Virus record (IMG/VR): IMGVR_UViG_3300037882_003789
Location: 1 to 25,400 of that record
DNA: 25,400 nucleotides
DNA from: a virus
Strand: one strand, 5' to 3'
Shown: in pieces, positions 11,183-25,400 of the stretch
Position numbering within the stretch: the first letter of the stretch is position 1
Layout of the letters: every line of letters starts with the position of its first letter
Notes under the pieces: model-generated
What the model saw: only the letters and a program-made list of their open reading frames with translations
The model's database searches: none
Told to the model about the DNA's origin: nothing
Program-made: the position numbers and the translations under genes

Positions 11183-12109
11183 TTAATTCAGTTTCCATCC
11201 TTGCGACAACACCAGCGCCCAGGGTTTCTGCAAACCTAAAACCATATCCAGGTTGATATTGGTCAACAGGTAATTTCCGCTTTGGCCGGCGTCGCGGGCA
11301 ATTAAACCCACCGAGGTTAATGCCGAAACATTATCCGCCTCGCCCCATTGCGTAAAGAATACGCTGGAGGAATTACCACCGTTGACCGCTTCCGTGAACG
11401 GTAGCAGCGGAACGCCATCGGCGTCATAACCGGCGCCCTTTAAAATCACGTTGCGAATTTGCGGGATCGGCACTCCAAATTCGTCGATGGTTTCCCGGTA
11501 GTAACCCAGACTTTTACCCACCGTTACCCAGCGGGTCAAAAGGTCTTCGTTCATGTAGGCAATCGGGTTGACTGCCCGAAGCTTCTGGGCTTCTTTCAGA
11601 AAGGCTTCCACTGCCAATTGTTGCGCTTCTATTACGCCGTCACTGTTACCAGCCGGAACTAAAACGCCGTTTTCGTTGGTGTAGCTGCCACTGGCAATTT
11701 TCCGTAAGCCGTTAAAATCTTCTGCATCCGCCGCGGCGTCGCCCTCAAAAATAAGATACTGCAAACGGAAACCGGCTTGCCGGGCTTCCCGCTGGATTTG
11801 CCGGATCATCGCGGTCGGTAAATCATATCCCCGATCCGCATAAACCACGTCGACCTTTGCATCAAACGATACAATCTTTTTAGTCAAGGTTGCCGGAACC
11901 GGGGTGGGCGGGGTGGCGCTGTTATCCTCGTTTAAGGAACGGGTAATTTTAGCTTTCGCCGCCGCGTCAAAATCCTGGTAGATAGTATCGCTGGAACCGG
12001 GTTGCGCGTAAAACTCAATATCCTCCAGCGCCGGAGCGACTTCGGCCAGGGCGTCAATCGCCGTATTGGTGAGATTATCACTGGCGGAAATTTCTCTAAT
12101 TCGTGCCAT
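11183..12109 (-). CDS. Major capsid protein
   Basis: The product has 308 residues, the typical size for Mu gpT/HK97-fold capsid proteins. The N-terminus (MARIREISASDNLTNTAIDA) is followed by a VYADRGYDLPTAMIRQIQRE spine-helix-like stretch. A middle domain has AYMNEDLLTRWVTVGKSLGY and the C-terminus has KPWALVLSQGWKLN. It comes directly after the protease/scaffold gene and before small structural genes, the standard order. AGGAAAAG precedes the ATG. It would form the icosahedral shell after scaffold removal. The assignment rests on length, position and general sequence character. Confidence 0.85.
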   Translation of the reverse strand: MARIREISASDNLTNTAIDALAEVAPALEDIEFYAQPGSSDTIYQDFDAAAKAKITRSLNEDNSATPPTPVPATLTKKIVSFDAKVDVVYADRGYDLPTAMIRQIQREARQAGFRLQYLIFEGDAAADAEDFNGLRKIASGSYTNENGVLVPAGNSDGVIEAQQLAVEAFLKEAQKLRAVNPIAYMNEDLLTRWVTVGKSLGYYRETIDEFGVPIPQIRNVILKGAGYDADGVPLLPFTEAVNGGNSSSVFFTQWGEADNVSALTSVGLIARDAGQSGNYLLTNINLDMVLGLQKPWALVLSQGWKLN

Positions 12110-12129
12110 GTTCTTTTCCTTTTAAATGA

Positions 12130-12627
12130 TTAATTACGGTTTTCGTAGTATTTGGCATCCAGGCCGCGTTGCTGCCATTTCAAACGCAATTCCTCCGCAG
12201 CGTCTTTCGCGTGGTTTTTCTTTACCGGTTTTTCCTGGGCTTGCGGAGTTTCCAGGCTGCCCGGTTTGGCGGCATTGGCTTTGATGTTATCCAACACTTC
12301 TTTGGTTTTGGCAAAATTCTGTTTGGCGGAGTTAATATAAATCTCTTTTTGCGCCGGGGTAATTTTACCGGCGTTGATGGCGCTGTTTACCAGTGCTTCC
12401 ACCGCTTCATTCACACGGGATTCCTCCCGTTCTTTTTCCCGATTTTCAATCGCTTCCAGGCGCACTTCCCATTCTTCTTTTTTCTTTTCGCCTTCCGGAT
12501 GCGGTTTATCTTCCGGTTTTTCGGGATCGGGTGCAGCATTCAATTTTTCTACTGCTGCCTCCACTTGCTCCGGGGTGGCGTCTTCCGGCAACCCCAGTTT
12601 CTTTAAAAATTCTGCGGAAAATTTCAT
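12130..12627 (-). CDS. Nested scaffold protein (gpZ-like), in-frame internal start
   Basis: Met166 of the protease gene begins MKFSAEFLKKLGLPEDATPE, and a GAGGA site lies 4 nt upstream of its ATG at 12627. Translation from here would give a separate 165-residue scaffold without the protease domain. Mu genes I and Z have this nested arrangement. The charged coiled-coil composition fits a scaffold. Spacing is slightly short, so use of this start is likely but not certain. Confidence 0.5.
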   Translation of the reverse strand: MKFSAEFLKKLGLPEDATPEQVEAAVEKLNAAPDPEKPEDKPHPEGEKKKEEWEVRLEAIENREKEREESRVNEAVEALVNSAINAGKITPAQKEIYINSAKQNFAKTKEVLDNIKANAAKPGSLETPQAQEKPVKKNHAKDAAEELRLKWQQRGLDAKYYENRN

Positions 12628-13122
12628 ATCATCCTCGTGGTTTGAGTTACGAATATGGTCTATTTCGTTGTCAAGATACGGCTCATTGGTAAGCGCCACG
12701 TGCAACAATTGTGCACCGATGGGCATCCCCAACTTATTGCGACTTTCCAAAACGTAAGCCGGGGAAAGATACCGGTATTCCCGGTTCTTCACCATCTCCG
12801 TAGCGTGCGGCGTAAAGTCCGGGTATTTAACATACAACCCATCTTCCAGAACCTCCGCCGATGCACTCCATCCGGCTGCGCGGGTATCACCAAACAACGA
12901 ACGATGTTCAAAGTCAAAGAGTAAATCCTTTTTGCTGTTATTGAAATTATCCGCCATCTGTTGCAGATGGGTAGCGGTAATTTCATGTGGGCCGTCCGGA
13001 TGATTTGGGAAAACCCCAATGGGAACCACTTTAATAAAGTCGCCCTGGGCGATTTCTACCGCGTTAAAAAAACAGCCCTTTTTTCTGCTTGACTTATTTC
13101 TAAAAATTGCTAACTTAAACAC
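12130..13122 (-). CDS. Mu gpI-like prohead protease with C-terminal scaffold
   Basis: The protein has 330 residues. Residues 1-160 carry features of the phage I-like protease family: an FPNHPDGPHEI stretch, a DFEHRS motif with D70, E72 and H73, REYRYLSPAY at 114-123 and ALTNEP at 143-148. Residues 166-330 are highly charged and helical (EKKKEEWEVRLEAIENREKE), as in scaffolds. The start is GTG at 13122, with AAAGG 11 nt upstream. It directly precedes the capsid gene. The protease would mature the prohead and degrade the scaffold. The gene starts a leftward operon from the divergent region shared with the portal. Confidence 0.85.
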   Translation of the reverse strand: MFKLAIFRNKSSRKKGCFFNAVEIAQGDFIKVVPIGVFPNHPDGPHEITATHLQQMADNFNNSKKDLLFDFEHRSLFGDTRAAGWSASAEVLEDGLYVKYPDFTPHATEMVKNREYRYLSPAYVLESRNKLGMPIGAQLLHVALTNEPYLDNEIDHIRNSNHEDDMKFSAEFLKKLGLPEDATPEQVEAAVEKLNAAPDPEKPEDKPHPEGEKKKEEWEVRLEAIENREKEREESRVNEAVEALVNSAINAGKITPAQKEIYINSAKQNFAKTKEVLDNIKANAAKPGSLETPQAQEKPVKKNHAKDAAEELRLKWQQRGLDAKYYENRN

Positions 13123-13274
13123 GTTCGTTTTTGCCTTTCTTGTTCAAGACATCGTAAAAATAATTCCCCAAACCCCATTTTTAAAGAGTTCTCGCCACAA
13201 CTATACTGCCGTGCGCTAAATTTTAGTAAACGCCGTTGGCCTGTTATAAATTTCCCGCTGTCGAAAGGAATGAT
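13123..13274. promoter_or_regulatory. Divergent late promoter region between protease and portal
   Basis: The 152-bp gap separates two diverging late operons and so should hold promoters for both. On the plus strand an extended -10 element TGTTATAAA lies at 13242-13250, with only a poor -35 (TTTAGT at 13222). This is what an activator-dependent late promoter often looks like. On the minus strand I saw no convincing -10/-35 pair. AAAGGAA at 13264-13270 is the portal ribosome binding site. Confidence 0.4.
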
Positions 13275-14393
13275 ATGCTAACGGTAAACAAAAAAATTTC
13301 TCAAGCGCGGGTGCAGTTCAACCCCGATTTTTACAAACGCGCTTATCAGCAATACAAAGATGGGGTCTTTACTGATCTGATTGCCTTGATGAAAGAATCG
13401 GCCATCGATAGCTACGTTGCCGGATGCCTCGCCAGCCGCCGTTCCGGTTTCCAGCGGGATTGGACAATCAAACCCTTTGATCCCGATAACGCCGCCGACC
13501 AGGAACGCGCCCTGTTTATCCAGAACATGTTTGAGAATATCAACTCCCGGTTGTTCTTTAAAAAAATCCATGAAGCCACCACCTACATTTATAGCGTGAT
13601 CGACTTTGAGTGGGAAGTCATTAACGGCTTACAGGTTATCACCGGGTTTAAATGGTATGATCAAAAATATTTCAAGTATGACCAGGACGGTATTTTGAAA
13701 GTCGATTGGGGAAAGAGCCTGCGCCCCATCCCGGAAACCACGTTGGTTTGCGAGAGCAAAGAAACTCCCATCATGCTGCCGGTGCTGCGCGACTTTATCT
13801 TGAAAAATTTTGGCCTGGAATCCTGGGCTTCTTTCATCGAAGCCTTCGGTGAAGGAATCCTGATTGGAAAATATCCCCCCGGCGCTACCGCCGATTTTAA
13901 ACAGGAATTGGAAGACGGCCTGGATGCCATTGCCCGCAGCAGCCGCGGCACCATGCCCCAGGGCACCGAAATCGACATCGTGGAAACCAACCGCACCACC
14001 GGCGATCATAAAGATTTTACACAAGTGTGCAACGAGGGTATTGCCATCAGCCTGCTGGGGCACGCCAACGCCGTGCAGGATAGTAGTGGAATGCGGATCG
14101 GTGAAAACCTCGCTCCCTTCAAAGTGCGGCGAGACCTGGCCCTTGATGATATGTATTTTATCGAACCTTGCATCAATAAAGCCATACATATCATCTACGA
14201 TCAAAATTATGCTGATGCCCGCTACCCGCTTTTCCGAATGGATAAAAGCGAGCCTATCAACATCACCGAGCGCCTGGATGTTTTGGATACCGCCTTCAAC
14301 CAGGGTTTGATCATCGACCCCGACGAATACCGCAAGCTCGGTTTAAAAGTTCAGGATGACCAGGAACCCTTACAAAAGGATTCCATCTTATGA
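13275..14393 (+). CDS. Phage portal protein, DUF935 (Mu gp29-like)
   Basis: This 372-residue portal forms the dodecameric DNA entry vertex. I use ATG 13275, preceded by AAAGGAA. A TTG 13 codons upstream lacks a site and overlaps the promoter. Family-like segments are ESAIDSYVAGCLASRRSGF near residue 45, DFEWEVINGLQVITGFKWYD in the middle, and WASFIEAFGEGILIGKYPPG, which corresponds to the conserved FxExyG region of gp29-like portals. The C-terminal GHANAVQDSSGMRIGENLAP is also typical. The gene overlaps the small terminase gene (ATGA). In Mu the portal follows the terminases, whereas here it precedes them. Confidence 0.9.
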   Translation: MLTVNKKISQARVQFNPDFYKRAYQQYKDGVFTDLIALMKESAIDSYVAGCLASRRSGFQRDWTIKPFDPDNAADQERALFIQNMFENINSRLFFKKIHEATTYIYSVIDFEWEVINGLQVITGFKWYDQKYFKYDQDGILKVDWGKSLRPIPETTLVCESKETPIMLPVLRDFILKNFGLESWASFIEAFGEGILIGKYPPGATADFKQELEDGLDAIARSSRGTMPQGTEIDIVETNRTTGDHKDFTQVCNEGIAISLLGHANAVQDSSGMRIGENLAPFKVRRDLALDDMYFIEPCINKAIHIIYDQNYADARYPLFRMDKSEPINITERLDVLDTAFNQGLIIDPDEYRKLGLKVQDDQEPLQKDSIL

Positions 14394-14869
14394 AATTCTC
14401 CGCCACCGTTTACAACGAAGCCAAACGCCTATTCATTGAGGAAGAATTGAGCCTGCATCAAATCTCTGCCCGTTTTAACGGCCACCCCAGCGCCCCGGCC
14501 ATTCACAAGTGGTCGAAGATTCCTGACAATGATGGAAAGACCTGGAAGGACTATAAACTTGCCTACCGTGATGAACTATACAATATGGTTTCTCCCCAGG
14601 CCATTGCCGTAAAAATTTTGGATAACATCCAGAAGCTTTTGAACAACGAGAACTTCGGCACCAAAGACGCCGACGCCCTGGCTAAACTCCAAAAGAGTAT
14701 GCAGAAAATCACCGATCCCAAATACCAGATACCGGTGATGTATTCCATGCTCACCGACCAGATGAAGTTTTTCCAGAAACATTACCCGCAGATCGTCAAC
14801 AAGGATTTGGTGGATGCTATCCGGCATTTCAAAAACGAGTTGGGAAAGAGGTTGAGCAGTGGACAGTAA
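14390..14869 (+). CDS. Terminase small subunit-like protein (Mu gp27 position)
   Basis: The product has 159 residues. The N-terminal third is a helix-turn-helix (AKRLFIEEELSLHQISARFN, followed by IHKWSK) like those of small terminases that read packaging sites. The rest is helical with a regular charged pattern (KILDNIQKLLNNENFG, ADALAKLQKSMQKI), suitable for ring formation. It overlaps the portal stop and ends inside the start of the large terminase gene. In Mu-like phages the small terminase starts packaging from the integrated end. Confidence 0.8.
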   Translation: MKFSATVYNEAKRLFIEEELSLHQISARFNGHPSAPAIHKWSKIPDNDGKTWKDYKLAYRDELYNMVSPQAIAVKILDNIQKLLNNENFGTKDADALAKLQKSMQKITDPKYQIPVMYSMLTDQMKFFQKHYPQIVNKDLVDAIRHFKNELGKRLSSGQ

Positions 14870-16379
14870 TCATCTGAAAAACATCGACGTTGGGTTTGAA
14901 CGGCTGCTGCTGGATATTCTGCACGGCGTCGATCAATTGGAATTCACCCCGGAGCGCCGTGCCTTGCGCCGCCAGGTGGTTGACGCCGATGATCTGGCCT
15001 TTTGCAAAACTTATTACCCAAAAATTTTCGACCTGGAATTTAACGCCCTGCACCGCCACATCGCCGGCCTCAAGGAAGGTAAATACACTGTGGAAGGTTT
15101 CCCGATGTCCGGCAAAACTGCCTTCACCTTCATCACCAAAATTATTAAGCCGATGCTCACCGGGGGAAATGGCCTGTTTAACGTTACCCTTCGCACCCAG
15201 GACATCGCAAAGGAACGCACCTTTCACATATTTCGTCTCATAACCTTCAACCGTTTGTTGATGTTCGATTATGAACCCAACATTCTCCAGGAGCAGAAGG
15301 GTTACTACATCATCAACAAGGCGACCCTGGTAGCTACCAGCGTCGAGACCGGCTTGCGTAATTTTGTTGACGATGATTTTAAACGCTTCAAAGTAAGCGT
15401 GGCCGATGACCTTTATAACCGTGTATCCGTGCGTTCCGAAAAGGATAACGAAAACGTCGCGGAGTTCGTTACCGGGGAGCTTTACCGGCAGATGGAACCC
15501 GATGGTTTGAGCGTCTGGCTGGGTAACGGAATTAAAGAAGATTGCCCGATTCGCCGGGTTTCTAATTTGTTTCCCGACCAAAATTTTATTTTCCCCATCG
15601 TCGATGAAAACGGCAATTCCAACTGGGAAGTAAAATACCCCACCGAGAAGCTGCCGGAACTGCAAAAGGATATTCCCTGGGATGTCTGGGAAGGCGAATG
15701 GCTCTGTAAACCGGCCATGAAAGGCGACATCTTCCAGAAGGATTGGCTACATACCATCAACATCAATCTTCTGAAGATCATCGCCAGCCTTTCCGCCTGT
15801 GATCCCTCGCACGGTAAAAGCCCGGCAGCCTGCAATAAAGGTTTAATCACCGGAGGCGTCACCAGCAAGCATGAAGTCATCGTCCAGGACATTTACCTGC
15901 GCACCGAATCCTACGAAACCATGTTCGACTACGTGGCCGCCCTGCGCCAGCGTATTTCCAACTGGAAAGTTTTGCTGTTTGAAAACGACTTCGAGCAGTG
16001 GAATTTTGCCGATGCCTATTATAAAGACTGGATGAAAACCCGCAAATCCACGCTGCCGATTATGACCTTTTACAGCAAGGATAACGCCACCGAATATCGC
16101 GGGGCCGATAAAGAAAGCCGTATCCTTAACCTGGTGCACCCACACCAGACCGGCATGATCCTTTACAGCGACCTGCTAACCGGCACTTCCGATTGGGTGA
16201 AATTCCAAAGCCAATACCTGGCCTTTGGCAAGGCAAAGGAAAAGCAAGACGGCCTGGATGCCCTGGCCACCCTTTATATTATGATTTTCCGATACATCGA
16301 AACCGGTAACTTTAAAGCCACCAAAAGCAAACGTTACCAGAAACCAGGTTGGTTTGCCAAATTCCGGGAGGGCCGCTGA
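14859..16379 (+). CDS. Terminase large subunit (Mu gp28-like)
   Basis: This is a 506-residue packaging motor with ATPase and nuclease parts. Walker A is G80-FPMS-GKT87, an exact GxxxxGKT. Walker B is probably VSVAD183D184. The nuclease residues are likely D315 (in ACDPSHGKS), E375 or D377 (LLFENDFEQ) and D464 or D467 (KQDGLDALA), the RNase H-like triad of terminases. Translation starts at GTG 14859, with AAGAGG 8 nt upstream and an 11-bp overlap with the small subunit gene. The stop shares TGATG with the next gene. It would cut prophage DNA and pump it through the portal. Confidence 0.92.
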   Translation: MDSNHLKNIDVGFERLLLDILHGVDQLEFTPERRALRRQVVDADDLAFCKTYYPKIFDLEFNALHRHIAGLKEGKYTVEGFPMSGKTAFTFITKIIKPMLTGGNGLFNVTLRTQDIAKERTFHIFRLITFNRLLMFDYEPNILQEQKGYYIINKATLVATSVETGLRNFVDDDFKRFKVSVADDLYNRVSVRSEKDNENVAEFVTGELYRQMEPDGLSVWLGNGIKEDCPIRRVSNLFPDQNFIFPIVDENGNSNWEVKYPTEKLPELQKDIPWDVWEGEWLCKPAMKGDIFQKDWLHTININLLKIIASLSACDPSHGKSPAACNKGLITGGVTSKHEVIVQDIYLRTESYETMFDYVAALRQRISNWKVLLFENDFEQWNFADAYYKDWMKTRKSTLPIMTFYSKDNATEYRGADKESRILNLVHPHQTGMILYSDLLTGTSDWVKFQSQYLAFGKAKEKQDGLDALATLYIMIFRYIETGNFKATKSKRYQKPGWFAKFREGR

Positions 16380-16852
16380 TGGCCGAATTAAACGACGTCC
16401 CCGACATCCTTGAAAAACTGCAACGCCGCCTGTTTAGCCGGGCGCTGCTTAACAAAATCGGGTTGGCCGGTATCCGGTTAATCAAAGCCCGCACCCGCCT
16501 GGGCATCGATGTCAAGGGCGCTGCCTTTGAACCGTATAGTGACGGTTGGGCGATAATCCGCCAGGCGCATAACCTGCCAACCGCCTACGTCAACCTGGAG
16601 TTTAACGACATCGACGGGATGTTGAAAAAGATCGATCACGTGGTGGCCGCCGACCTGGAAAGCGTCGAAATCGATATTCTCGATCCCGACAAACGTAAAA
16701 TTGCCAGCTACCACAACGACCTGGGCGCCGGTAAAAGCCACGTCAAGCGCCGCTTCTTTGACATCAACCAGCAAGAAATGAAAAAGATCGATGAACTGGT
16801 CGAGGCAGATTTGAATTTATTATTAGCCGATTTAACACGGGAGGCCGACTAA
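16379..16852 (+). CDS. Virion morphogenesis protein, Mu gpG-like
   Basis: The 157-residue protein matches the phage virion morphogenesis family (Phage_tail_S/gpG). The ATG at 16379 overlaps the terminase stop. The N-terminal helix ends LLNKIGLAGIRLIKARTRLG, then comes a GAAFEPYSDGWA segment, typical of this family, and a C-terminal charged helical region. Members act in head-tail assembly. The gene ends in the start of the gp36-like gene (TAATG). Confidence 0.82.
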   Translation: MAELNDVPDILEKLQRRLFSRALLNKIGLAGIRLIKARTRLGIDVKGAAFEPYSDGWAIIRQAHNLPTAYVNLEFNDIDGMLKKIDHVVAADLESVEIDILDPDKRKIASYHNDLGAGKSHVKRRFFDINQQEMKKIDELVEADLNLLLADLTREAD

Positions 16853-17256
16853 TGGCTTTGATCGACATTACCGAAGTTCAGGAAAAGTTTGAAGTCTGGG
16901 AAGATTATTGCACCATCAACGGCCTGGATAAAACCGCCGAGGAAGTGCTTCAGGATAAAATCGACGACGGTGAAACCGAATTGCTGGAATACCTAACAGT
17001 GGATGAAGACACCATCACCGCCATTCACCAGCGGCATTTGATGAACATCATCCGCTACAACTGCTTCCGTGTCAAACACGGCGATACCGAGTTTGAAAAC
17101 AAGCCGCAAATCGTGGTGGATTACGAGCGCACTATCGAAGCTCTAAAACAGATGAAGGTGAGCGACGAATTAGGGGCCGCCCAAGACCTTCCGCAGCTCA
17201 AAGCCAAAACCCGGATTTTCGACGAGGGCGGCTGGTTTACCGACGAAGCTGGATAA
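16852..17256 (+). CDS. gp36-like head-tail connector (DUF1320)
   Basis: The 134-residue protein resembles the Mu gp36 family: an N-terminal EVQEKFEVWEDYCTINGLD, a helical core where ILQ-type helices lead to HQRHLMNIIRYNCFRVKHGD, and a C-terminal tail ending FDEGGWFTDEAG. Members join head and tail after packaging. It overlaps the gpG-like gene and is followed by a 130-nt gap with hairpins. The Arg-Tyr-x-Cys stretch and length of about 130 residues fit the family. Confidence 0.82.
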   Translation: MALIDITEVQEKFEVWEDYCTINGLDKTAEEVLQDKIDDGETELLEYLTVDEDTITAIHQRHLMNIIRYNCFRVKHGDTEFENKPQIVVDYERTIEALKQMKVSDELGAAQDLPQLKAKTRIFDEGGWFTDEAG

Positions 17257-17295
17257 TTCCGGCTTGGTCGATTGATCTCCCCGTATAACGCAAGG

Positions 17296-17317
17296 CGAAC
17301 GGCAAAAACACCGTTCG
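17296..17317 (+). terminator. Stem-loop in the gp36/gp37 gap
   Basis: CGAACGG (17296-17302) pairs with CCGTTCG (17311-17317) around an 8-nt A-rich loop. A second palindrome, ACTCC-CC-GGAGT (17325-17336), is followed by TTTTT at 17339-17343. Together they may attenuate transcription before the gp37-like gene. Neither is a strong terminator by itself. Confidence 0.35.
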
Positions 17318-17386
17318 GATGGAAACTCCCCGGAGTGCTTTTTCCGCTTCCGGCTGTCTTTTTAAAAAAATCGGAGAATTTTTTAA

Positions 17387-17806
17387 ATGTATCGCGCCCA
17401 GCAATCTTTACTCAGGCATCTCAAAGCCGGCTTCCCCGGAGTCACTTTCGAGGAATACGCCGGCCAGCTTCGTGACGCCAACAAATTAAAACAGCGTAGC
17501 CTCCCCTGCGGCTACGTCGTTTACATCGACGGCCAGCCGATGGCCCAGCAGAAGCAGCATCAACTGGATGTAATCACCGTCTCGGAAAGTTTAGTGCTCA
17601 ATAAAAAGGATAACAAAAACTCCAACCTCTTATTCAGCGAGCAGGTCAACGAATACCTCCGCCAGCACACCCTGTTTAATACCCACGACGGCGCACCCGG
17701 CGTTTACATTATCTTGAATGAGCAAACCATTTCCCGCACCCTAATGGTGGATGCCCGTTTTACCATTTTGTCACTCAGTCTCCAGGTTAAGGATTCAACG
17801 CCTTGA
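17387..17806 (+). CDS. gp37-like tail terminator/joining protein
   Basis: The 139-residue protein looks like Mu gp37-family and related tail-completion proteins. It has MYRAQQSLLRHLKAGFPGV at the start, a GYVVYIDGQPMAQQKQHQLD strand region, a helix with FSEQVNEYLRQHTLFN, and a final beta segment (MVDARFTILSLSLQVKDS). Its place after the gp36-like gene agrees. The gene would cap the tail or join it to the head. It stands alone between two short non-coding gaps. Confidence 0.75.
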   Translation: MYRAQQSLLRHLKAGFPGVTFEEYAGQLRDANKLKQRSLPCGYVVYIDGQPMAQQKQHQLDVITVSESLVLNKKDNKNSNLLFSEQVNEYLRQHTLFNTHDGAPGVYIILNEQTISRTLMVDARFTILSLSLQVKDSTP

Positions 17807-17841
17807 CCTTAAACCAATAACCTTATATAAGGAGTAGCTAA

Positions 17842-18174
17842 ATGAATTTAGAAATGTTGATTGCCGTAGGAATGACTTTTATTCTAAGCCTGATCGGTTC
17901 CGGCGTCATCGCCAAAATTGTTGCCACCTTCGGTAAGGCCGAGGAAATAACCGCTGCCATCGAAGACTTTGCCACCCAGGTAAAAGAACTGCTGGCCCTC
18001 ACCGCCACTGTATTGGCCGATGGCACCGTCACCCAGGATGAAGTGGCCCGCATCATCAAAGAAGCCAAAGACATTGAGGAATCCCGCAAGCGCCTGTTTG
18101 ATGTTTTCAGTATTCGGGTACAGCAAAAATCCGTTCATCCCCAGGAAATGCTACGATCCAATAAAAAGAAATAA
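17842..18174 (+). CDS. Small membrane-anchored helical protein (holin-like?)
   Basis: The 110-residue product has one N-terminal membrane segment (LEMLIAVGMTFILSLIGSGV) and a helical, charged C-terminal part ending in SNKKK. The middle region (ADGTVTQDEVARIIKEAKDI) resembles an EF-hand-like or heptad pattern. AAGGAG lies 10 nt before the ATG. Genes at the end of a late operon often encode lysis proteins, so a holin or pinholin is one possibility. No lysozyme gene is adjacent. Confidence 0.65.
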   Translation: MNLEMLIAVGMTFILSLIGSGVIAKIVATFGKAEEITAAIEDFATQVKELLALTATVLADGTVTQDEVARIIKEAKDIEESRKRLFDVFSIRVQQKSVHPQEMLRSNKKK

Positions 18175-18272: not shown

Positions 18273-18656
18273 ATGGAAGAAACCATGTGTTTTATCGTTC
18301 TCTATCTTATCATCGGTTTTCTAAAAGCCACCCGTGATATTATCCTGTTCCGATTCACCTGGAGCATTTTTAGCGAGTGGCCGCAATGGATCCGTAATTT
18401 CCTCACCGGCTTAAACCGCTCTTGCCGTATATGCGACGGATTTCACCTGGCCGACGGCCTTATCGTTCAACTTCCCGCTATGGGAATTCTGATACTGTTA
18501 AACGTATTTATTTACGGTATCTCCCAGTGGTGGGTGCTCCCACAGTGGGTAGTATTTTTTGTCTTATTTTACAACGGTTGGTTTAACAATCTATATCATT
18601 ACATATTGATGAAAAAACAATACCGGGGAAAAGCTGGACATGGCTTACGAGAGTAA
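18273..18656 (+). CDS. Integral membrane protein, end of late operon
   Basis: The 127-residue protein has about three hydrophobic stretches: an N-terminal one, MGILILLNVFIYGISQWWVL and WVVFFVLFYNGWFN. A loop holds SCRICDGFH, a possible metal-binding pair. AAAGG lies just before the ATG. The gene's last codons lie inside the terminator. No known family was recognised. By position next to the other membrane gene it may take part in lysis or superinfection immunity. Confidence 0.6.
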   Translation: MEETMCFIVLYLIIGFLKATRDIILFRFTWSIFSEWPQWIRNFLTGLNRSCRICDGFHLADGLIVQLPAMGILILLNVFIYGISQWWVLPQWVVFFVLFYNGWFNNLYHYILMKKQYRGKAGHGLRE

Positions 18657-18679
18657 GCTAATATTTTTCCCCGTTTTTT
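18624..18679 (+). terminator. Intrinsic terminator at convergent junction
   Basis: An outer 9-bp stem, CGGGGAAAA (18624-18632) with TTTTCCCCG (18665-18673), encloses an inner hairpin GCTTAC (18643-18648) with GTAAGC (18653-18658). T674-T679 follow. It overlaps the end of the membrane gene and lies 19 bp beyond the repressor stop. A T-run at 18610-18617 on the other strand suggests it may also end repressor transcription. Confidence 0.85.
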
Positions 18680-18697
18680 ACAGGGAGTCAAAACGAG

Positions 18698-19084
18698 TCA
18701 CTTCTTAAACACCTTTACCAACTCATAAACCTTGCGCAAGTCTTCCTCGTTTAAACCTTGTAGTAGCTTTACAATTTTCCCCACATAGCTGCTGGTAACC
18801 GCTGTTGCCGTGTAGCTACCGCCCGCCTCGCTAACGCCGTAAAATCCCCCGCCGTTTTCTTCCGAAAAACCTCTACCAATTAAAAACGGCGTGCCCTCAC
18901 CGGAGATTAGCCAATTGATATTCACACCATGTTTTTCATAAATCCTCAATAACATTAAAGAACCCGGATTCGATCTTCCTGCCAGCCAATCACCAATATT
19001 GCCGGAAGTCGCTCCAATCGATTTTGAGAAATCCTTTTTTGTTAAATGTAATTCCTCAATAAGCCACTTCAATCTTTCACGCAT
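18698..19084 (-). CDS. Phage repressor, XRE/CI-like HTH
   Basis: The protein has 128 residues. Residues of about 14-36 (LTKKDFSKSIGATSGNIGDW) form a helix-turn-helix, followed by the AGRSNPGSLMLLRIYEKHGV and NINWLISGEG pattern typical of CI-like repressors. After a Gly/Ser-rich linker the C-terminal helices (LQGLNEEDLRKVYELVKVFK) look suited to dimerisation. No S24/LexA peptidase motif is present, so induction by self-cleavage is unlikely. It would bind the two palindromes upstream, shutting off the early operon. Its ATG is at 19084, with only a weak ribosome binding site. Confidence 0.88.
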   Translation of the reverse strand: MRERLKWLIEELHLTKKDFSKSIGATSGNIGDWLAGRSNPGSLMLLRIYEKHGVNINWLISGEGTPFLIGRGFSEENGGGFYGVSEAGGSYTATAVTSSYVGKIVKLLQGLNEEDLRKVYELVKVFKK

Positions 19085-19114
19085 TTGAAGCCCAAATATT
19101 ATTTTAAAAAGTTG

Positions 19115-19130
19115 TCACTTAAATAAGTGA
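19115..19130. promoter_or_regulatory. Operator O1
   Basis: The 16-bp site TCACTTAAATAAGTGA has perfect 7-bp arms around a 2-bp centre. It is the inverse-complement partner of O2, 31 bp away (three helical turns). It lies 31 bp upstream of the repressor start codon, where it could cover the repressor promoter. Confidence 0.75.
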
Positions 19131-19138
19131 TTTTCATC

Positions 19139-19167
19139 TTGACAGACACTTATTTAAGTGTTAAACT
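19139..19167 (+). promoter_or_regulatory. Early promoter
   Basis: TTGACA (19139-19144) is a consensus -35. A 17-bp spacer leads to TAAACT (19162-19167) as -10. Transcription would begin near 19174 and reach the Ner-like gene after about 40 nt. The spacer contains operator O2, so repressor or Ner binding would block polymerase. Confidence 0.75.
19146..19161. promoter_or_regulatory. Operator O2
   Basis: The site ACACTTATTTAAGTGT has perfect 7-bp arms. Its 14-bp core is the exact reverse complement of that of O1. It fills the spacer of the early promoter between the -35 and -10 hexamers. Confidence 0.75.
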
Positions 19168-19214
19168 TCCCTGTGTAAAATTAAAGATCAATTATTTAAA
19201 CAGGAGCAGCAGCT

Positions 19215-19466
19215 ATGAGAATAGAACCGATTGAGTTTAACGAGAGGGAAGCGCGGGTGGCTATGGAGGTTTTAGGTGCCAGCCAAACGCAGATTGCCCG
19301 CCAGTTTGGGGTAACTCCCCAAACCGTTTACAAGGTATTAACCCGCCAGAAAAACAGCCAGCGCATTAACCGGCATTTTAAAGAGATCATAAAACGCGCC
19401 AACCGGGTGGTAAACCTGCGCCCGTTAAATGTGCAGCAAGGCGGCCAGCGCCGCCAGGCTTCTTAA
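19215..19466 (+). CDS. Ner/Cro-like HTH regulator
   Basis: The 83-residue protein carries a helix-turn-helix at about residues 23-44 (SQTQIARQFGVTPQTVYKVL) and a basic C-terminus (RINRHFKEIIKRANRVV). It is the first gene of the rightward operon and diverges from the repressor, as ner does from c in Mu. AGGAG at 19202-19206 lies 8 nt before the ATG. It would bind the same operator region to turn down repressor or early transcription during lytic growth. Confidence 0.82.
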   Translation: MRIEPIEFNEREARVAMEVLGASQTQIARQFGVTPQTVYKVLTRQKNSQRINRHFKEIIKRANRVVNLRPLNVQQGGQRRQAS

Positions 19467-19589
19467 ATGTCTTTTTAGCTCCTGACAGGAAAGTTTAACC
19501 ATTCACGAGAAAGGATTCAATAGCTATGAAAAAATTACTGGGATTTTTGCAACGCCTGTTTACCAGGCCAAAACAGCGAGGAATAAATC

Positions 19590-20024
19590 ATGAACCCCCA
19601 ACTGCAACAGGCCCTTTACAGCGCCTTTCACCAGGGAGCCATGAAGCCCCGGGAGATCGCCCGGATGCTCAAAGTCAGCTACAACTACCTTGCACGTGCC
19701 TGCATGGCTGGAAAGAGCCGCGTAGCCTTTCCCATCCACTGGCTACCGGATTTCATCAAGATAACCGGCAGGGTGGAGCCGCTGAAAATCATTTCGAATT
19801 CCAGCGGATACCTTTTATCCCCGATCCCATTGCGCTCCGTTCCAACGGAAAAGGAAGTGCTGGCAATGATGTCAACCTTTTCTCAGGCCATGCAAGCCCT
19901 GGCTACCTGGGCAAGAAATCCCGGCGACAAACTCGCCATGGAAACCATCGCCCAGTTGACCAGAACCCAGGAGGAAATCGAATATTGGAAACGCCTGATT
20001 CAATCCCCGAAGATCAGCAAATAA
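19590..20024 (+). CDS. CII-like phage regulatory protein (Phage_CP76-type)
   Basis: The 144-residue product has an N-terminal helix-turn-helix (MKPREIARMLKVSYNYLARA), then the pattern FPIHWLPDFIKITGRVEPLK and a hydrophobic SGYLLSPIP end. This order is typical of CII/CP76 regulators. The C-terminal third is helical (EEIEYWKRLIQSPKISK) and may mediate oligomerisation. AGGA precedes the ATG by 7 nt. An overlapping longer frame runs through the whole gene in another register, but its peptide here is Pro/Gly/His-rich and shows no fold, so this frame is preferred. Confidence 0.78.
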   Translation: MNPQLQQALYSAFHQGAMKPREIARMLKVSYNYLARACMAGKSRVAFPIHWLPDFIKITGRVEPLKIISNSSGYLLSPIPLRSVPTEKEVLAMMSTFSQAMQALATWARNPGDKLAMETIAQLTRTQEEIEYWKRLIQSPKISK

Positions 20025-20329
20025 TCACCTGCCCGCACTGCGGCTACCGCCACGCCTACGACTACTGGAACTTCCCGGAGATCCGCCTTACCGAGGGCCT
20101 GGAAAACCTCTCCTGCGAATCCTGCGGCGGCTTCCTGTTAGACGACGATTTTAACGCTAACCTGCAAAACTACCAGGGCGACCTGCAACTCTCCCTGCTG
20201 CGTCACCGCAGCCGTTGTTACGCCTTTTTTAACGGCCAGGAATACACCCACAAAAATGGCCTCTATGCCCTGGCCATCGCCATGCAGAAATACTTTCGCC
20301 ACGAAGGTTTGAAAGGGGGGAAACCATGA
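19985..20329 (+). CDS. Small zinc-ribbon protein (TTG start)
   Basis: I place the start at TTG 19985 because AGGAGG lies 10 nt upstream (19969-19974), giving 114 residues. Near the N-terminus are a CPHCGYRHAYDYW motif and a CESCGGFLLDDDF motif, two CxxC knuckles of a zinc ribbon. The C-terminal part (FNGQEYTHKNGLYALAIAMQ) is helical. The same frame is open back to an ATG at 19526, so a 267-residue product cannot be excluded. The overlap with the CII-like gene suggests coupled translation. It may be a small DNA- or RNA-binding regulator. Confidence 0.6.
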   Translation: METPDSIPEDQQIITCPHCGYRHAYDYWNFPEIRLTEGLENLSCESCGGFLLDDDFNANLQNYQGDLQLSLLRHRSRCYAFFNGQEYTHKNGLYALAIAMQKYFRHEGLKGGKP

Positions 20330-20673
20330 AAATTATGATCCGCCGCAACCCTTACCGCTGGTTTTACCTGCGCCGCCATCGCATCCGTGGGCGCTACTGC
20401 CTGGATGCTTTGGAAGTATGTTTCTTCACCATCGCCTTTATGTTTATCCGGCGAGAAATGAACCTGATGGAAGGCCACGCTTATGTCTCCACCTTCTACA
20501 CCCGCGCCTTAGAGCCAATGGGCGAAGCCATCATCGACTTAATTAAATGGGATACCGTCTTTTTCCATTACCGTAATCTACCCCGCCAGGAAATGGAATT
20601 GTCGATACCCCTCTTTTATGACTGTTACCAGGAACCAAAATTAGGAGGAAGTAATCATGCCAAAATCAATTAA
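20326..20673 (+). CDS. Hypothetical early protein (115 aa)
   Basis: I do not recognise this protein. The 115-residue product begins with a very basic, aromatic stretch (MKIMIRRNPYRWFYLRRHRI) and has a hydrophobic segment (ALEVCFFTIAFMFIRREM) that could be a membrane helix or a buried helix. It ends with FYDCYQEPKLGGSN. It overlaps the zinc-ribbon stop (ATGA), with a run of G's before the start, and overlaps the following regulator by 17 bp. It is probably an early accessory protein. Confidence 0.6.
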   Translation: MKIMIRRNPYRWFYLRRHRIRGRYCLDALEVCFFTIAFMFIRREMNLMEGHAYVSTFYTRALEPMGEAIIDLIKWDTVFFHYRNLPRQEMELSIPLFYDCYQEPKLGGSNHAKIN

Positions 20674-21025
20674 CCAACGGCAGATCATTGCCATGTATCA
20701 AACCGGCTGTTTTAGCAACGCCGCCATTGCTCGCCGGCTGGATGTATCGGAAAAGACCGTGCAGCGGGTTATCTCCGATAACCTGGAAAACGGCATGTTC
20801 CCCGCCGAGCGTTTTAAAGAAATGACCCCCGAAGACGAAAAAGCCGTCTGGCTGGCCTGGTTTCGCCAGGGAGCGCCTTACAGCTACATCGCCTATTGTT
20901 TCGGCGTAAAACGCCAGACCGTTGTAAGCGTGATGGAAGAAACCCTGGATCAAATCTTCGAATCCGATCAAACCCTTTCCCCGGCCCCGGCAGCCGTGGA
21001 AAATGAACTCTTAAACATTTTTTAA
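20657..21025 (+). CDS. Tandem HTH regulator
   Basis: The 122-residue protein has two helix-turn-helix motifs: about residues 20-42 (SNAAIARRLDVSEKTVQRVI) and about 72-93 (GAPYSYIAYCFGVKRQTVVS). This tandem homeodomain-like arrangement resembles transposase or late-activator DNA-binding domains. AGGAGGAA lies before the ATG. As a mid-operon DNA-binding protein it could be the activator of the late promoters, a Mor-like role, but no sequence match supports that directly. Confidence 0.7.
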   Translation: MPKSINQRQIIAMYQTGCFSNAAIARRLDVSEKTVQRVISDNLENGMFPAERFKEMTPEDEKAVWLAWFRQGAPYSYIAYCFGVKRQTVVSVMEETLDQIFESDQTLSPAPAAVENELLNIF

Positions 21026-21035
21026 AGGAGCAGCC

Positions 21036-21305
21036 ATGAGCGAGAAAAATATCATCCCCGGCAAACTGGTCGACATGGGAAAACTCACTTCCTACGACAA
21101 CCTCAATTATTACCAATACCAGCCGGAAGGTAACAGCAACTTGCGCGTGCGCTTTTTCCCGCTGGAGCACAAACCCAATATCTTTCTGGCCGATTACAGC
21201 CGCAATTCCGGCATGTCTTTCGAAAGCTGGCCCGGTGCATTCCAGGAGTTTACCCACCTGGAGCGCCACGCCCGCCATATATGTAAAATTTTAAACGGTG
21301 AATAA
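21036..21305 (+). CDS. Hypothetical early protein (89 aa)
   Basis: I do not recognise this protein. It is 89 residues, soluble and aromatic-rich (SYDNLNYYQYQPEGNSNLRV, FESWPGAFQEFTHLERHARH). No Cys pairs or membrane segment define it. AAAGGAGCAGCC stands just before the ATG, almost the same site as before the next gene. It lies in the early operon between a regulator and another small protein, so a host-takeover role is plausible. Confidence 0.6.
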   Translation: MSEKNIIPGKLVDMGKLTSYDNLNYYQYQPEGNSNLRVRFFPLEHKPNIFLADYSRNSGMSFESWPGAFQEFTHLERHARHICKILNGE

Positions 21306-21315
21306 AGGAGCAGCT

Positions 21316-21519
21316 ATGCAATACTTTCTTTTACTTTTTCCCGATGGAACATTTTCAATCTTAAAATCCAGCCTCGACCGCCGCCCGGTTAAGCAGGATT
21401 TTCAAAACGGCACTCGCCTGTTTTTAGTCGATTCCGATACCAACATCGAAAACCTCTGGGAATGGACTTGTGAGCGCTTCGATGGTAATAAAAAATCTTA
21501 CCTGGAGTTATCCTGGTGA
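21316..21519 (+). CDS. Hypothetical early protein (67 aa)
   Basis: The 67-residue protein starts at ATG 21316, directly after AAAGGAGCAGCT. A start six codons upstream would place that site inside the gene. It begins MQYFLLLFPDGTFSILKSSL and ends with NLWEWTCERFDGNKKSYLEL. The composition suggests a small beta-alpha domain. No family was recognised. It is tightly packed between two early genes. Confidence 0.6.
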   Translation: MQYFLLLFPDGTFSILKSSLDRRPVKQDFQNGTRLFLVDSDTNIENLWEWTCERFDGNKKSYLELSW

Positions 21520-21531
21520 AAGGAGAAAAAT

Positions 21532-21966
21532 ATGATTATCAATAAAATCTATTTAGCAAGTTCCTGGCGTAATGTTTACTACCCACAAGTATTAAAGTTA
21601 TTGAAAGAGTGTGGTTATGACGTTTATGATTTCCGTAATCCCCATGCACATTTTAAATGGTCGGATATAGACCCGGAATGGGAAAACTGGGATACCGATC
21701 AATATAAACGTGCTCTCAATAATTCATTGGCTGTCAAGGGTTTCAATAATGATATGTTTATGCTTACTAACTGCGATTTGTGCATAATGGTTCTACCTTG
21801 TGGGCGTAGTGCCAATTTAGAGTTGGGAATTGCTATCGGAAAGGGAATACCCACCATCATTTATATACCGGAAAAAATCGAACCGGAACTCATGTATAAA
21901 GCCGCCAATTTTATTGTTTCAAGTGAAAAAGAATTACTGGTAAGGATCGGCTGGCTACAAACATAA
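21532..21966 (+). CDS. Nucleoside 2-deoxyribosyltransferase-like protein
   Basis: The 144-residue protein fits the nucleoside 2-deoxyribosyltransferase superfamily: IYLASSWRN (residues 6-14), a VYDFRNP strand-loop, then D82 in NCDLCIMVLP and GRSANLELG (91-99), whose E97 is placed like the family's nucleophile. These enzymes cleave or exchange N-glycosidic bonds of deoxynucleosides or related nucleotides. The gene uses A/T-ending codons far more than its neighbours, a sign of separate origin. AAGGAGAAA precedes the ATG. In phages such enzymes may act in nucleotide salvage, DNA base modification or counter-defence. The real substrate is unknown. Confidence 0.8.
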   Translation: MIINKIYLASSWRNVYYPQVLKLLKECGYDVYDFRNPHAHFKWSDIDPEWENWDTDQYKRALNNSLAVKGFNNDMFMLTNCDLCIMVLPCGRSANLELGIAIGKGIPTIIYIPEKIEPELMYKAANFIVSSEKELLVRIGWLQT

Positions 21967-21998
21967 TCCGAACGATAACCGCCAAACGTCGGGAAAAA

Positions 21999-22037
21999 GT
22001 GTCCACTCGAGGACACCAATTTTGTGGCATCCTTTTT
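21999..22037 (+). terminator. Hairpin(s) after the deoxyribosyltransferase-like gene
   Basis: GTGTCC (21999-22004) pairs with GGACAC (22011-22016) around ACTCGA. An alternative pairing of GGA at 22011 with TCC at 22030-22032 ends in TTTTT (22033-22037). The two foldings exclude each other, which fits an attenuator or weak terminator before the coiled-coil protein gene. Confidence 0.4.
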
Positions 22038-22074
22038 AAAAACGAACTCTAAATTTTAATAACAGGAGTAAAAA

Positions 22075-22983
22075 ATGAGCAAAAAAAATGGATCAGCGAC
22101 CGTAGAAACCACCCCGGAAGAAACCGCTGTGGAGCTTTCTGAGGTTCTGGAAATCAATAACATCTATGATGATGAAGAAAAGAAGCTCCACAAGATCACC
22201 CCGGAGCGTCGTTCCCTGGCCGGTTTCCTTCACCAGCAGTTACTGATGGGTGCATTGATCACCGCCTTTGCCATCAAACGCATCTTTGATGAAAAGCTCT
22301 ACCTCGAATTGGGATGTGGTAGCAAAGAGGAATATTGCGAAACCATGCTACCGTTTAATCGCAAACAGGCTTACAAATACTTCGCCGTTGCTGAAAAATT
22401 CGGCAAATATCTCCCCGCCAACTTCGATCCTGCCAAACCCCTGGTGGAAGGCGAAAACCCCCTGCCCACCACCGAGATCACCAAACTCTACGAGCTTACC
22501 CGCCTGGAACCGGAACAACTCGACCAGCTAATGGATGGCGAGTCCGTTGGAAACATCGACCCCCAAAACATCCACGTCCTCTCTGCCAACGCCCTGCGTG
22601 GGCAAATTAAAGAAATGCGCAAAACCTACGGAAGCCGGGTCACCAACCTGGAGGAGCAGGTAAAAACCCTCAAAGAGGAAATCAAAAACAAGCAGCACCT
22701 GGTGGCCGAGGCCAAACAGCTAAAAGAAGATTACGTCTTCCTGCAAACCCACTTCGAGAAACCGGCTGCCACCTTAAAGGAAAAAGAAAAAAACCTGGAA
22801 CTCGCCCGTAAGCACATGCACGACCTCCAGCCGGCCCTGCTAAATTGCAACATCTCCGCCGACGATCCCGACACCTTACAAGATGACCTCATGGATTTAA
22901 TCAACCACATACAATGGATCGTCGATTACAGCAAAACCGTTTACGGCGAAGTGCTCTTATCCTTTATCGAAAGACGCCAATAA
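22075..22983 (+). CDS. Coiled-coil phage protein (302 aa)
   Basis: No known family was secured. Residues of about 41-112 form a helical domain (ERRSLAGFLHQQLLMGALIT, then LELGCGSKEEYCETMLPFNR and KQAYKYFAVAEKFGKYL) that resembles the host-killing or partition-type helical domain of DUF3102-like proteins. Residues of about 175-250 are a coiled coil (RVTNLEEQVKTLKEEIKNKQ). The C-terminus is helical and acidic. AACAGGAG lies before the ATG, after the hairpin region. It comes before gemA and transposase, so it may work in DNA-linked early functions. Confidence 0.65.
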   Translation: MSKKNGSATVETTPEETAVELSEVLEINNIYDDEEKKLHKITPERRSLAGFLHQQLLMGALITAFAIKRIFDEKLYLELGCGSKEEYCETMLPFNRKQAYKYFAVAEKFGKYLPANFDPAKPLVEGENPLPTTEITKLYELTRLEPEQLDQLMDGESVGNIDPQNIHVLSANALRGQIKEMRKTYGSRVTNLEEQVKTLKEEIKNKQHLVAEAKQLKEDYVFLQTHFEKPAATLKEKEKNLELARKHMHDLQPALLNCNISADDPDTLQDDLMDLINHIQWIVDYSKTVYGEVLLSFIERRQ

Positions 22984-22993
22984 GGAAACCAAC

Positions 22994-23476
22994 ATGGCCA
23001 CCGCTAAGCAGATAAAAGTTATAAAAGCCATCCAGCGCGATAAATTCTCCAGCGATGAAGAATACCGCGACTGGCTGCGTAACAACTTCAAAGTCACTTC
23101 CTGCACCAAACTCAACAACCAGGAAGCCAGCGAAGCCATTCAACTGCTTACCGAGGGAAAAATAAAACCGGTCACTCCCGCAAAATATCGAGGCAACGGC
23201 AAACGCGGCAGCCAGGTGCACCTGACACCCGCCCAGGCTGAGCGTATCCGTATCCTGGAAGAAATCCTCGACTGGCATTCCAACGGTCGCCGTCTGCAAG
23301 GATTTATGAAGCGTATCTTCAACCGTGAAACCCGCGTTGACTGGCTAAAAAATTACGAAGCCGTAAAGCTCATTCTGGGAATGACCAAATTAATTTCCGG
23401 TAAAGACGAAACCCTTTTTAAAAAACTTAATTCCATGAACAACTCCGAACTCCAAACCTATCGGGAAAACCTGTAA
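22994..23476 (+). CDS. gemA: GemA-like early protein (DUF1018, Mu gp16)
   Basis: The 160-residue protein matches the GemA/gp16 family: ATAKQIKVIKAIQRDKFSSD at the start, then a YRDWLRNNFKVTSCTKLNNQ stretch with the conserved 'short helix, S-C-T-K-L, E-A' order, and EASEAIQLLTEGK. The C-terminal part is basic and helical (ERIRILEEILDWHSNGRRLQ). In Mu, GemA affects host DNA gyrase-related functions. Here the gene overlaps the transposase start (TAATG), a neighbour choice not found in Mu. AAGGAAA lies before the ATG. Confidence 0.85.
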   Translation: MATAKQIKVIKAIQRDKFSSDEEYRDWLRNNFKVTSCTKLNNQEASEAIQLLTEGKIKPVTPAKYRGNGKRGSQVHLTPAQAERIRILEEILDWHSNGRRLQGFMKRIFNRETRVDWLKNYEAVKLILGMTKLISGKDETLFKKLNSMNNSELQTYRENL

Positions 23477-25107
23477 TGTTAAAAATTGACTGGAACGCAT
23501 TACGGGAGGAATGGATAGCCGCCCCTCACGGTGGCAAACGTGCGGTCATCCAAAACTATGCTAAAACCTGTAACGTCAGCTACGCCACCCTCTATCGTGG
23601 CCTGCAAAAACGTTACGGCCCCACAAAAGATGTTATTCGGGAGAAAAAAGTGCCGGATCAAATAATCGACGAAGTTGCCAAAATTAAAATCGCCGGGGAA
23701 AAACTGTCCCTCAGTCCCCGGGAACTATCCACCGGGCTTTGCATCGACATCCTTTCTAAGGAGGGAAAAATCAAGGACGGTGACGTAACTGTCAGCACCG
23801 TAAACCGACGCCTCCGGGGATCCGGTTTTCGTATGGAAAACCCGGTGGTGCGGTTTGAATGTTCCCGCGCCAACCAGGAGCACCAGATGGACTTCACCCG
23901 CTCCAAATATTTCCAGATGTATAAATTCTCCGAACTGGATAACGACTGGCTTCTCAAACGCTCCGGTAAAAACCTGGAATACAAAGAGCACGATAAAAAA
24001 TTCCGCACCTGGATTGTATCCCTGGTCGATAGCTACTCACGCGTGCGCCTGTCGCGTGCCTATCCCGCCACTAATGAAAGTGCCTTCCTCGGGCTCGGAT
24101 TCCTGCACTGGGTATGGACTCGTGAGGAAGATGCCATCCCTTTGCGCTACCTGTCCGATATTTTGAAAACCGACAACGGCGCATTTGCCAAACGCACCGA
24201 AGTAACCGCCGCCTTTACTTCCCTCGGCGTTGACCTGCGCACCAGCGCCCCCGGCAATAAAGACAGCCAGGGAAAAGTAGAACGACCCTTCCGCACCCTC
24301 TGGCAACGCTTCGAGTTATTCCTATCGGTTAAAATGGATCGCGCCGGCCAGGAAACTCTACTGCTACGTGAATACAACGACCTGTTGCTGGAATACTGCG
24401 CCCAGGAAATGCAAGAAGCCCATCCCATCCACCGACTGCATACTCGCGAAGCGCTTTACCGCCAGAGCATCCTGCAACACGCCCCCCGCCAGTTTGATGG
24501 CGACATCTTCGACCACGCCTTCCGTGTCGAAGAAAGACAAGTCGGGCGCGACCTGATGGTAAAGTTCCGGGGAGAAAATTACGAAGCCCCCCTTTACTGC
24601 CTCGGAAAATCCATCCGCGTCTATCAAAATATGAACGGTGAATTAATGGGCGACCTGATAGATGATTACCGTGAAAAGCCCTTCCTATTAACTCCCTACC
24701 GCGTCCGGGAATACGACGATTACGAAAACCGTCCCCACGGTACCTACCGCCAGCAGATGGAAAAAGAACTCCGCCAGGAAAAACAGGCCAAAGTCAAAGA
24801 TACCCACGACCCCGCCGCCGCCGAATCCCAACCCGCCAAACAAAAATTCTTGCCGCCCCGCCCCATAGCGGCCAAAGCCGAAAGTGTTTTCACCTTAAAT
24901 AATTCCCCGGAAACCTTTAAAAGCCCTTTTGAAGCCCAGGCTTACATCGGAAAACAACTGCCGGAAGGTTACACCTATCAAACCTTCCGCCACGTGTTCG
25001 ACGATCTCCTGGAAAGCACTCTGGAGAAAAAAGCCATAGACGCCGTGCTGCTGGCCGTTAAAGAGACCCTGGGAGATAATAACCTTAAACTCATTCAAGG
25101 AGGATAA
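23476..25107 (+). CDS. Mu-like DDE transposase (MuA/TnsB type)
   Basis: The protein has 543 residues. An N-terminal DNA-binding region (about 8-50, including GGKRAVIQNYAKTCNVSYAT) is followed by an rve-type core. The acidic triad is D139 (in HQMDFT), D233 (LKTDNG) and E269 (SQGKVERPF), so D-D-35-E. A Mu-type C-terminal domain follows (about 330-400) and a charged linker leads to a final helical part (ESTLEKKAIDAVLLAVKE) that may contact the ATPase. It would pair the prophage ends and join them to target DNA. It overlaps gemA and is followed by AAGGAGGA for the next gene. The D(35)E spacing is closer to TnsB than to MuA (55). Confidence 0.93.
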   Translation: MLKIDWNALREEWIAAPHGGKRAVIQNYAKTCNVSYATLYRGLQKRYGPTKDVIREKKVPDQIIDEVAKIKIAGEKLSLSPRELSTGLCIDILSKEGKIKDGDVTVSTVNRRLRGSGFRMENPVVRFECSRANQEHQMDFTRSKYFQMYKFSELDNDWLLKRSGKNLEYKEHDKKFRTWIVSLVDSYSRVRLSRAYPATNESAFLGLGFLHWVWTREEDAIPLRYLSDILKTDNGAFAKRTEVTAAFTSLGVDLRTSAPGNKDSQGKVERPFRTLWQRFELFLSVKMDRAGQETLLLREYNDLLLEYCAQEMQEAHPIHRLHTREALYRQSILQHAPRQFDGDIFDHAFRVEERQVGRDLMVKFRGENYEAPLYCLGKSIRVYQNMNGELMGDLIDDYREKPFLLTPYRVREYDDYENRPHGTYRQQMEKELRQEKQAKVKDTHDPAAAESQPAKQKFLPPRPIAAKAESVFTLNNSPETFKSPFEAQAYIGKQLPEGYTYQTFRHVFDDLLESTLEKKAIDAVLLAVKETLGDNNLKLIQGG

Positions 25108-25108
25108 C

Positions 25109-25249
25109 ATGAGAAGTTTTTTAATTTCCATTTTTAAAAGACGCTTCCGAAAAATCTGTATGGGATGCTGGGGCTGGAAAGACGGCGTCTGTAACTGGTG
25201 CCAGCACTGCCCCGATTGCGGCCATATAAACGTTTGTCCCAAACGATAA
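25109..25249 (+). CDS. Cysteine-rich mini-protein
   Basis: The 46-residue product has a basic, hydrophobic N-terminus (MRSFLISIFKRRFRKI) and seven cysteines: C17, C20, C28, C31, C34, C37 and C43, in CxxC pairs with His33 and His39 nearby. It would bind one or two zinc ions. The ATG follows the transposase stop by one base, and AGGAGGA overlaps the transposase end. It is squeezed between transposase and ATPase genes, so it may belong to the transposition machinery. No family was recognised. Confidence 0.65.
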   Translation: MRSFLISIFKRRFRKICMGCWGWKDGVCNWCQHCPDCGHINVCPKR

Positions 25250-25265
25250 CCGAAAGGAGTTTCAC

Positions 25266-25400
25266 ATGAATAACCGTATTTTAAATCATTTTGGCATCAA
25301 CCAGCTAATATTCTTCCTTAGCGAAACCGTCCGCCGCTTCATCAACGACGTAAAAGATGCCATTCTCAACGACCGTATGATCGCCTTAAGTGGAGCCGTC
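25266..25400 (+). CDS. Truncated N-terminus, probable MuB/TnsC-type AAA ATPase
   Basis: The frame runs from ATG 25266 to the window edge, 45 residues, with AAAGGAG before the start. The last residues (DRMIALSGAV) look like the beginning of a Walker A motif of the GxxGxGKT type, which would continue just beyond the edge. Upstream is an amphipathic helix (LNHFGINQLIFFLSETVRRF). Position directly after the transposase and a mini-protein fits the target-choosing ATPase of Mu- and Tn7-like elements. The rest of the gene is not visible, so the assignment is an inference. Confidence 0.6.
   Translation, partial: MNNRILNHFGINQLIFFLSETVRRFINDVKDAILNDRMIALSGAV

Follow-up and report, generated by a model that had tools for sequence, protein, structure and literature searches.

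Gene content of the window

The window, i.e. the whole stretch of DNA analysed here, is a linear IMG/VR virus contig of 25,400 bases (IMGVR_UViG_3300037882_003789). On the structural side, HMM scans identified genes for a Mu-type portal, a protease of the Mu gpI type, the major capsid protein, and a tape measure protein; they also recognized a CI-like repressor, GemA, and a MuA-like transposase. The portal (PF06074) and protease (PF10123) scored well over the cut-off, both a MuA-like DDE transposase and the start of a MuB-like ATPase are present, and a DNA-level search against 50,697 phage records gave no match to the window. The window is a Mu-like transposable phage of a clade matched by no described phage, and represents roughly 80–88% of a genome whose full size is estimated at 29–31 kb. 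Profile scans made via the large terminase, covering viral contigs and a single genome for each species, yielded 28 further records carrying this gene (G001–G009 and G011–G029); a single-protein portal scan of viral contigs retrieved no relatives, alignments being required.

The left arm, encoded on the minus strand, contains the head and tail genes, namely a Mu gpI-like head maturation protease (12130–13122; PF10123 Mu-like_Pro, E = 1.6e-37), the major capsid protein (11183–12109; phrog_212, E = 5.9e-20), a run of small proteins, a probable tail tube protein (8678–9148), an 897-aa tail tape measure protein (5449–8142; phrog_991, E = 4.8e-38; PF10145, E = 3.8e-24), and distal tail genes (252–2609, 2610–3518, 3469–3822, 3819–4229, and 4229–5452). 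The tail tube assignment is based on an AlphaFold2 model (pLDDT 76) whose top Foldseek matches are tail tube proteins. The distal tail genes were assigned by profile matches; several are kept in relatives, and the gene at 252–2609 carries a Laminin_G/lectin domain. Regarding the tail type, the tube fold and the long tape measure protein are accompanied by a capsid-to-tape-measure interval with no ORF larger than 186 aa, i.e. none of sheath size. A PF04984 sheath search found nothing in the window and also missed the annotated sheath of Winoviridae used as a positive control, and this search was therefore uninformative with respect to sheath absence. The gene following the capsid gene (10471–11031, minus strand) starts with a signal-peptide-like stretch, and about ten relatives carry homologues next to their capsid gene. 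For a structural operon, an exported product would be unexpected. No endolysin was recognized anywhere in the window, whereas in the gut virus hankyphage (Bacteroides phage p00, BK010646) and Elizabethkingia phage TCUEAP3 (OK632026) a lysin gene directly follows the capsid gene.

The right arm, encoded on the plus strand, begins with the Mu-type portal gene (13236–14393; likely start at ATG 13275; PF06074 Portal_Mu, E = 1e-46). As claimed in the first-pass annotation, the portal gene (13275–14393 from this start) precedes the terminase genes. The first of these encodes a DUF1804-like small terminase (14390–14869; PF08822, E = 3.5e-5, under the Pfam cut-off), which is conserved next to TerL in relatives and aligns with the annotated TerS of three known phages. 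The second (14859–16379) encodes a 506-aa protein with no match in PHROGs, Pfam, or PDB sequences. Its AlphaFold2 model, built from 22 sequences (pLDDT 86.6), had PhiV-1, D6E, Sf6 gp2, and T4 gp17 as top PDB matches (best E = 1.3e-15); because these top fold matches are large terminases, the model identifies the protein as the large terminase of a divergent family. It is distantly alignable with its hankyphage counterpart. Downstream lie genes for a gpG-like virion morphogenesis protein (16349–16852; PF05069 in the G013 orthologue, E = 2.7e-6), a Mu gp36-like connector (16852–17256; PF07030 in the G001 orthologue, weak, E = 0.012), and a Mu gp37-like connector (17387–17806; PF08873 in the G013 orthologue, E = 5.6e-4, under the cut-off). 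The names given to the small terminase and to the gp36- and gp37-like proteins come from weak or relative-based matches and are tentative.

The early operon, including the transposase gene, lies at the right and runs away from the late genes, as had been proposed, extending rightward from 19215 to the contig end. It is preceded by a CI-like repressor gene on the minus strand (18698–19084; PF12844, E = 6.6e-10; phrog_8). The first early gene encodes an HTH (Ner-like) protein (19215–19466; phrog_664 and other HTH families), and the distal part of the operon contains a conserved early gene (22075–22983; phrog_1748) in the position of the DUF3102 gene of Pseudomonas phage B3, followed by genes for a GemA-like protein (22994–23476; PF06252, E = 9.9e-15), the MuA-like DDE transposase (23476–25107; phrog_310, E = 7.8e-28), and a MuB-like ATPase, of which 45 N-terminal residues are encoded before the contig breaks off (25266–25400), all on the plus strand. 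The candidate catalytic residues of the transposase (D139, D233, and E269) are invariant in 12 relatives. The MuB-like fragment matches the post-transposase gene in 12 relatives, and its G013 orthologue has an AAA domain. The operon also encodes a nucleoside deoxyribosyltransferase-like protein (21532–21966, plus strand; phrog_12607, E = 1e-48), for which no homologue was found in the other contigs of the set. Two frames, 19526–20329 and 19590–20024 (plus strand), overlap. Because homologues exist in relatives only for the latter (CII-like, weak PF06892 match), the former is probably not a gene across its whole length.

Genome ends and the Mu-F-like gene

A phage genome end was identified at 119–153 (plus strand), where GCGACAAATGA occurs twice, at 120 and again at 143 (spacing 23 bp). 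The spacing of this pair is the same as that within the 35-bp inverted repeat CCTGCAACAAATGACGGTCTAAACTGCAACAAATG found in G013 at 85 and 32289. Similar repeat pairs with this spacing are located near one end of G005, G003, G011, and G028, and that of G018 lies ~1.7 kb from the contig end and is followed by apparent host coding sequence (KSB1 MAG). Because matching repeat pairs sit at the ends of relatives, the left edge of the window is probably a true phage end preceded by ~115 bases of host DNA (1 to ~115), with the end position approximate. Terminal repeats were thus found at the left end in the window and at both ends in G013 alone; they are putative transposase-binding sites. The distance from the MuB start to the genome end is 3.6 kb in both G013 and G018 and is longer in G028, suggesting that the right side of the window is short by about 3.5–6 kb. 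In G025 (JAKAKL010000087.1), a 99-bp inverted repeat occupies both contig ends (bases 1–99 and from 41893); it does not resemble the phage ends seen in the other members and may represent a host repeat or an assembly effect.

The first-pass annotation noted that no gpF-like minor head gene is seen. This is correct within the window but does not hold for the clade, in which 22 relatives (G013, G017, G003, G006, G011, and 17 more) carry a Mu-F-like gene, e.g. L047:11162–11974. In these contigs, the gene lies in neither late arm but at the distal end of the block of early genes; it shares the strand of the other early genes in every one of the 17 contigs in which both were identified. The F-like assignment is made by a joint profile, the Pfam score being under the cut-off in several members. 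Because the window ends inside MuB, short of the position of F in relatives, its lack of gpF probably reflects truncation in addition to relocation of the gene to the early block. Two F-like proteins are approximately twice as long, i.e. L062:2063–3508 (481 aa; G018, KSB1 MAG) and G027:23948–25456 (about 500 aa). The extra C-terminal part of the G018 protein weakly matches zinc metallopeptidase families, and this protein can be likened to the MuF-plus-effector proteins that occur in temperate phages.

Divergent late arms and comparison with known phages

HMM matches, protein folds, and orthologues in relatives all place the portal, terminase, and connector genes rightward and the protease, capsid, and tail genes leftward, as the first-pass annotation had described. 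The shared gap, 13123–13274 (152 bp), was also correctly given if the portal gene begins at ATG 13275, a start preceded by the purine-rich sequence AAAGGA. Gene maps show that the late arms diverge in all 24 contigs, including the window, that carry both the protease and the large terminase genes, and in the window the AT skew changes sign where the coding strand changes. Given the conserved divergence, the gap may act as a late control region for both arms. No late-activator gene was recognizable in the window, and no promoter or site was recognized in the gap. In eight relatives (G002, G004, G006, G007, G011, G012, G016, and G021), the divergent gap contains a 14-bp dyad, CANATNNNNATNTG, located 29–99 bases ahead of the right-arm start. 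Exact copies number 8 in 7.1 kb of gaps and 11 in 680 kb elsewhere, i.e. are ~70-fold denser in the gaps, the dyad having been defined on the same eight gaps. This hints at a shared regulator of late genes and is a lead only; the dyad was absent from the gap of the window and, being exact in only those eight gaps on which it was defined, was rejected as a general late site.

Late-arm divergence is already known from Bacteroidota phages. Hankyphage, Porphyromonas phage007a (PP754929; proposed Alisviridae), and TCUEAP3 show the same single-gap divergence and share a Mu-type portal and MuA/MuB-type transposition genes with the window. Their gene order, however, is TerS-TerL-portal, in contrast to the portal-first order of the window, and their early operon, whose repressor gene occupies the genome end, is directed toward the late arm, opposite to the window. 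An F-like gene lies beside the portal gene in the late arm of hankyphage, TCUEAP3, and B3, whereas in the present clade it is part of the early block. In the text of the hankyphage papers found (figures aside), the late-arm divergence is not discussed, although the deposited map shows it plainly. B3 (NC_006548), a long-tailed transposable phage, resembles the window in that its early operon and transposase gene are directed outward to the genome end, its repressor is internal, and its DUF3102 gene directly precedes the transposase gene. However, its late genes lie on one strand (TerS-TerL-portal-F-G-protease-capsid) rather than in two arms, GemA and Mor are located at the far end, and its proteins are very distant from those of the window. 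The likeness to Mu comprises the portal, protease I, G, gp36/gp37-like connectors, GemA, MuA/MuB-type transposition, and Gam, the last in relatives of the window; unlike the window, Mu has a single late direction and a TerL-portal-F order. In Mu, the repressor is at the left end and the tail is contractile. Winoviridae (Flavobacterium phages pippi8-1 and FPSV-S1) have a portal of the Mu type, placed on an adjacent branch of the portal tree, but their packaging genes and protease/capsid genes are on one strand, a tail sheath is annotated, and the protease is of the ClpP type; the window portal falls outside their clade and its late genes are not co-directional. Outside Bacteroidota, portal and protease genes lie on one strand in SuMu, HS6, Mushu, 3927AP2, B23, Helicobacter prophages, and others, among the records in which both genes matched. 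The genome is accordingly rearranged relative to Mu, as the first-pass annotation stated, but not novel in its divergence, which is present in deposited transposable phages of Bacteroidota; none of the described phages examined shows the portal-first order or combines the two layouts, so described relatives share the layout only in part.

In the portal tree, 26 portals form one clade (support 100/100) apart from the hankyphage group and Winoviridae. Together with the lack of a DNA-level phage match, this largely bears out the proposal of a distinct lineage of transposable siphoviruses; its siphovirus part, drawn from the tail-tube fold and the lack of a sheath-size ORF, is tentative. Some relatives are in MAGs labelled Bacteroidetes, Ignavibacteriales, Melioribacteraceae, KSB1, and Neomarinimicrobiota. 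Binning errors may account for other labels, e.g. Deltaproteobacteria and Nautiliaceae; the length and match range of the 'Nautiliaceae' contig equal those of an IMG/VR record. A literature search for Mu-like prophages of Ignavibacteria found no paper. The portal-first order is confined to one group of 15 rows on the portal tree (95/88), which includes the window, suggesting a single origin; on the terminase tree two changes are needed. G012 (IMGVR_UViG_3300031576_001287) has the order TerS-portal-gpG-TerL. Its portal is placed on one side of the portal tree and its terminase on the other side of the terminase tree, which suggests recombination within the right arm of this contig.

Alternative readings and proposed working

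An assembly join at 11–14 kb, fusing two phages or inverting one arm, would make the divergence an artefact, and the first-pass annotation, which had a single contig to read, named such a join among the things that would overturn its layout. The same junction occurs in all 24 contigs with both markers and in the three described divergent phages, and the change in AT skew coincides with that in coding strand; therefore, neither chance nor a join explains the layout, and we assign the artefact a negligible probability. It is also very improbable that the window simply falls within the hankyphage group (proposed Alisviridae) rather than within a separate lineage. The late arms diverge in the same manner and the large terminases of the two can be aligned over 423 columns, but the 100/100 portal clade excludes hankyphage, phage007a, and TCUEAP3, which are nearer to Winoviridae. 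In addition, tblastn of the window large terminase and transposase against all three phages gave no match, the protease is of the Mu gpI type rather than ClpP-annotated as in hankyphage, and the F gene is grouped with the early genes and not with the late arm.

To account for early-block orientation, the large-terminase tree needs no fewer than five reversals and the transposase tree four, and in the gene maps the flipped unit is the whole block, from the repressor through the F gene. In the nearest relatives of the window by both terminase and portal (G023, G026, and G004), the block is the opposite way round. These observations would fit an actively invertible switch, in which case a living population would contain both states and the window orientation would not be fixed. 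However, no invertase gene was recognized, the block boundaries lack consistent inverted repeats, relatives are just 40–60% identical, so that the flips may be old, and Mu and B3 already hold the two orientations as fixed traits; we consider such an element highly unlikely. Boundary repeats of 13 bp (G003) and 15 bp (G018) were rejected as its ends, each being confined to one genome. The broader proposal that the block inverts often enough to switch between transcription geometries, and that the F-like protein now has an early or genome-end function and not that of a late minor head protein, is unlikely.

We hold with considerable confidence to the overall model of a transposable-phage clade with a two-way late region, an outward early operon, terminal repeats, and a predicted F-like gene past the window edge. 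Under this model, the CI-like repressor and the HTH (Ner-like) protein, which diverge at 19085–19214, would set lysogeny and control the early operon. Rightward transcription would cover GemA, the MuA-like transposase, and MuB and then, past position 25400, Gam and the Mu-F-like gene. The transposase would act on the paired end repeats, so that the phage is copied by replicative transposition. Late expression would proceed both ways from 13123–13274, to the right through the portal, terminase, and connector genes and to the left through the protease, capsid, and tail genes, and a single late activator could turn on both particle halves. Set against Mu, the packaging/portal/connector block is reversed, a trait shared with hankyphage; the early block is oriented as in B3, the portal gene has shifted to before the terminase genes, and the F-like gene is part of the early block.

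What is new here is the clade, the combination of layouts, the repeated early-block flipping, the portal-first subgroup, and the F-like gene in the early block. Transposable phages can be viewed as reversible blocks, i.e. early, packaging/portal/connector, and protease/capsid/tail blocks, and one clade contains both the Mu-type and the B3-type early orientations. The large terminase missed by public families provides a marker for Mu-like phages in little-sampled phyla, the transfer of the Mu-F-like gene to the early block opens its role to direct tests, and one region of ~150 bp is now marked for seeking the late activator.
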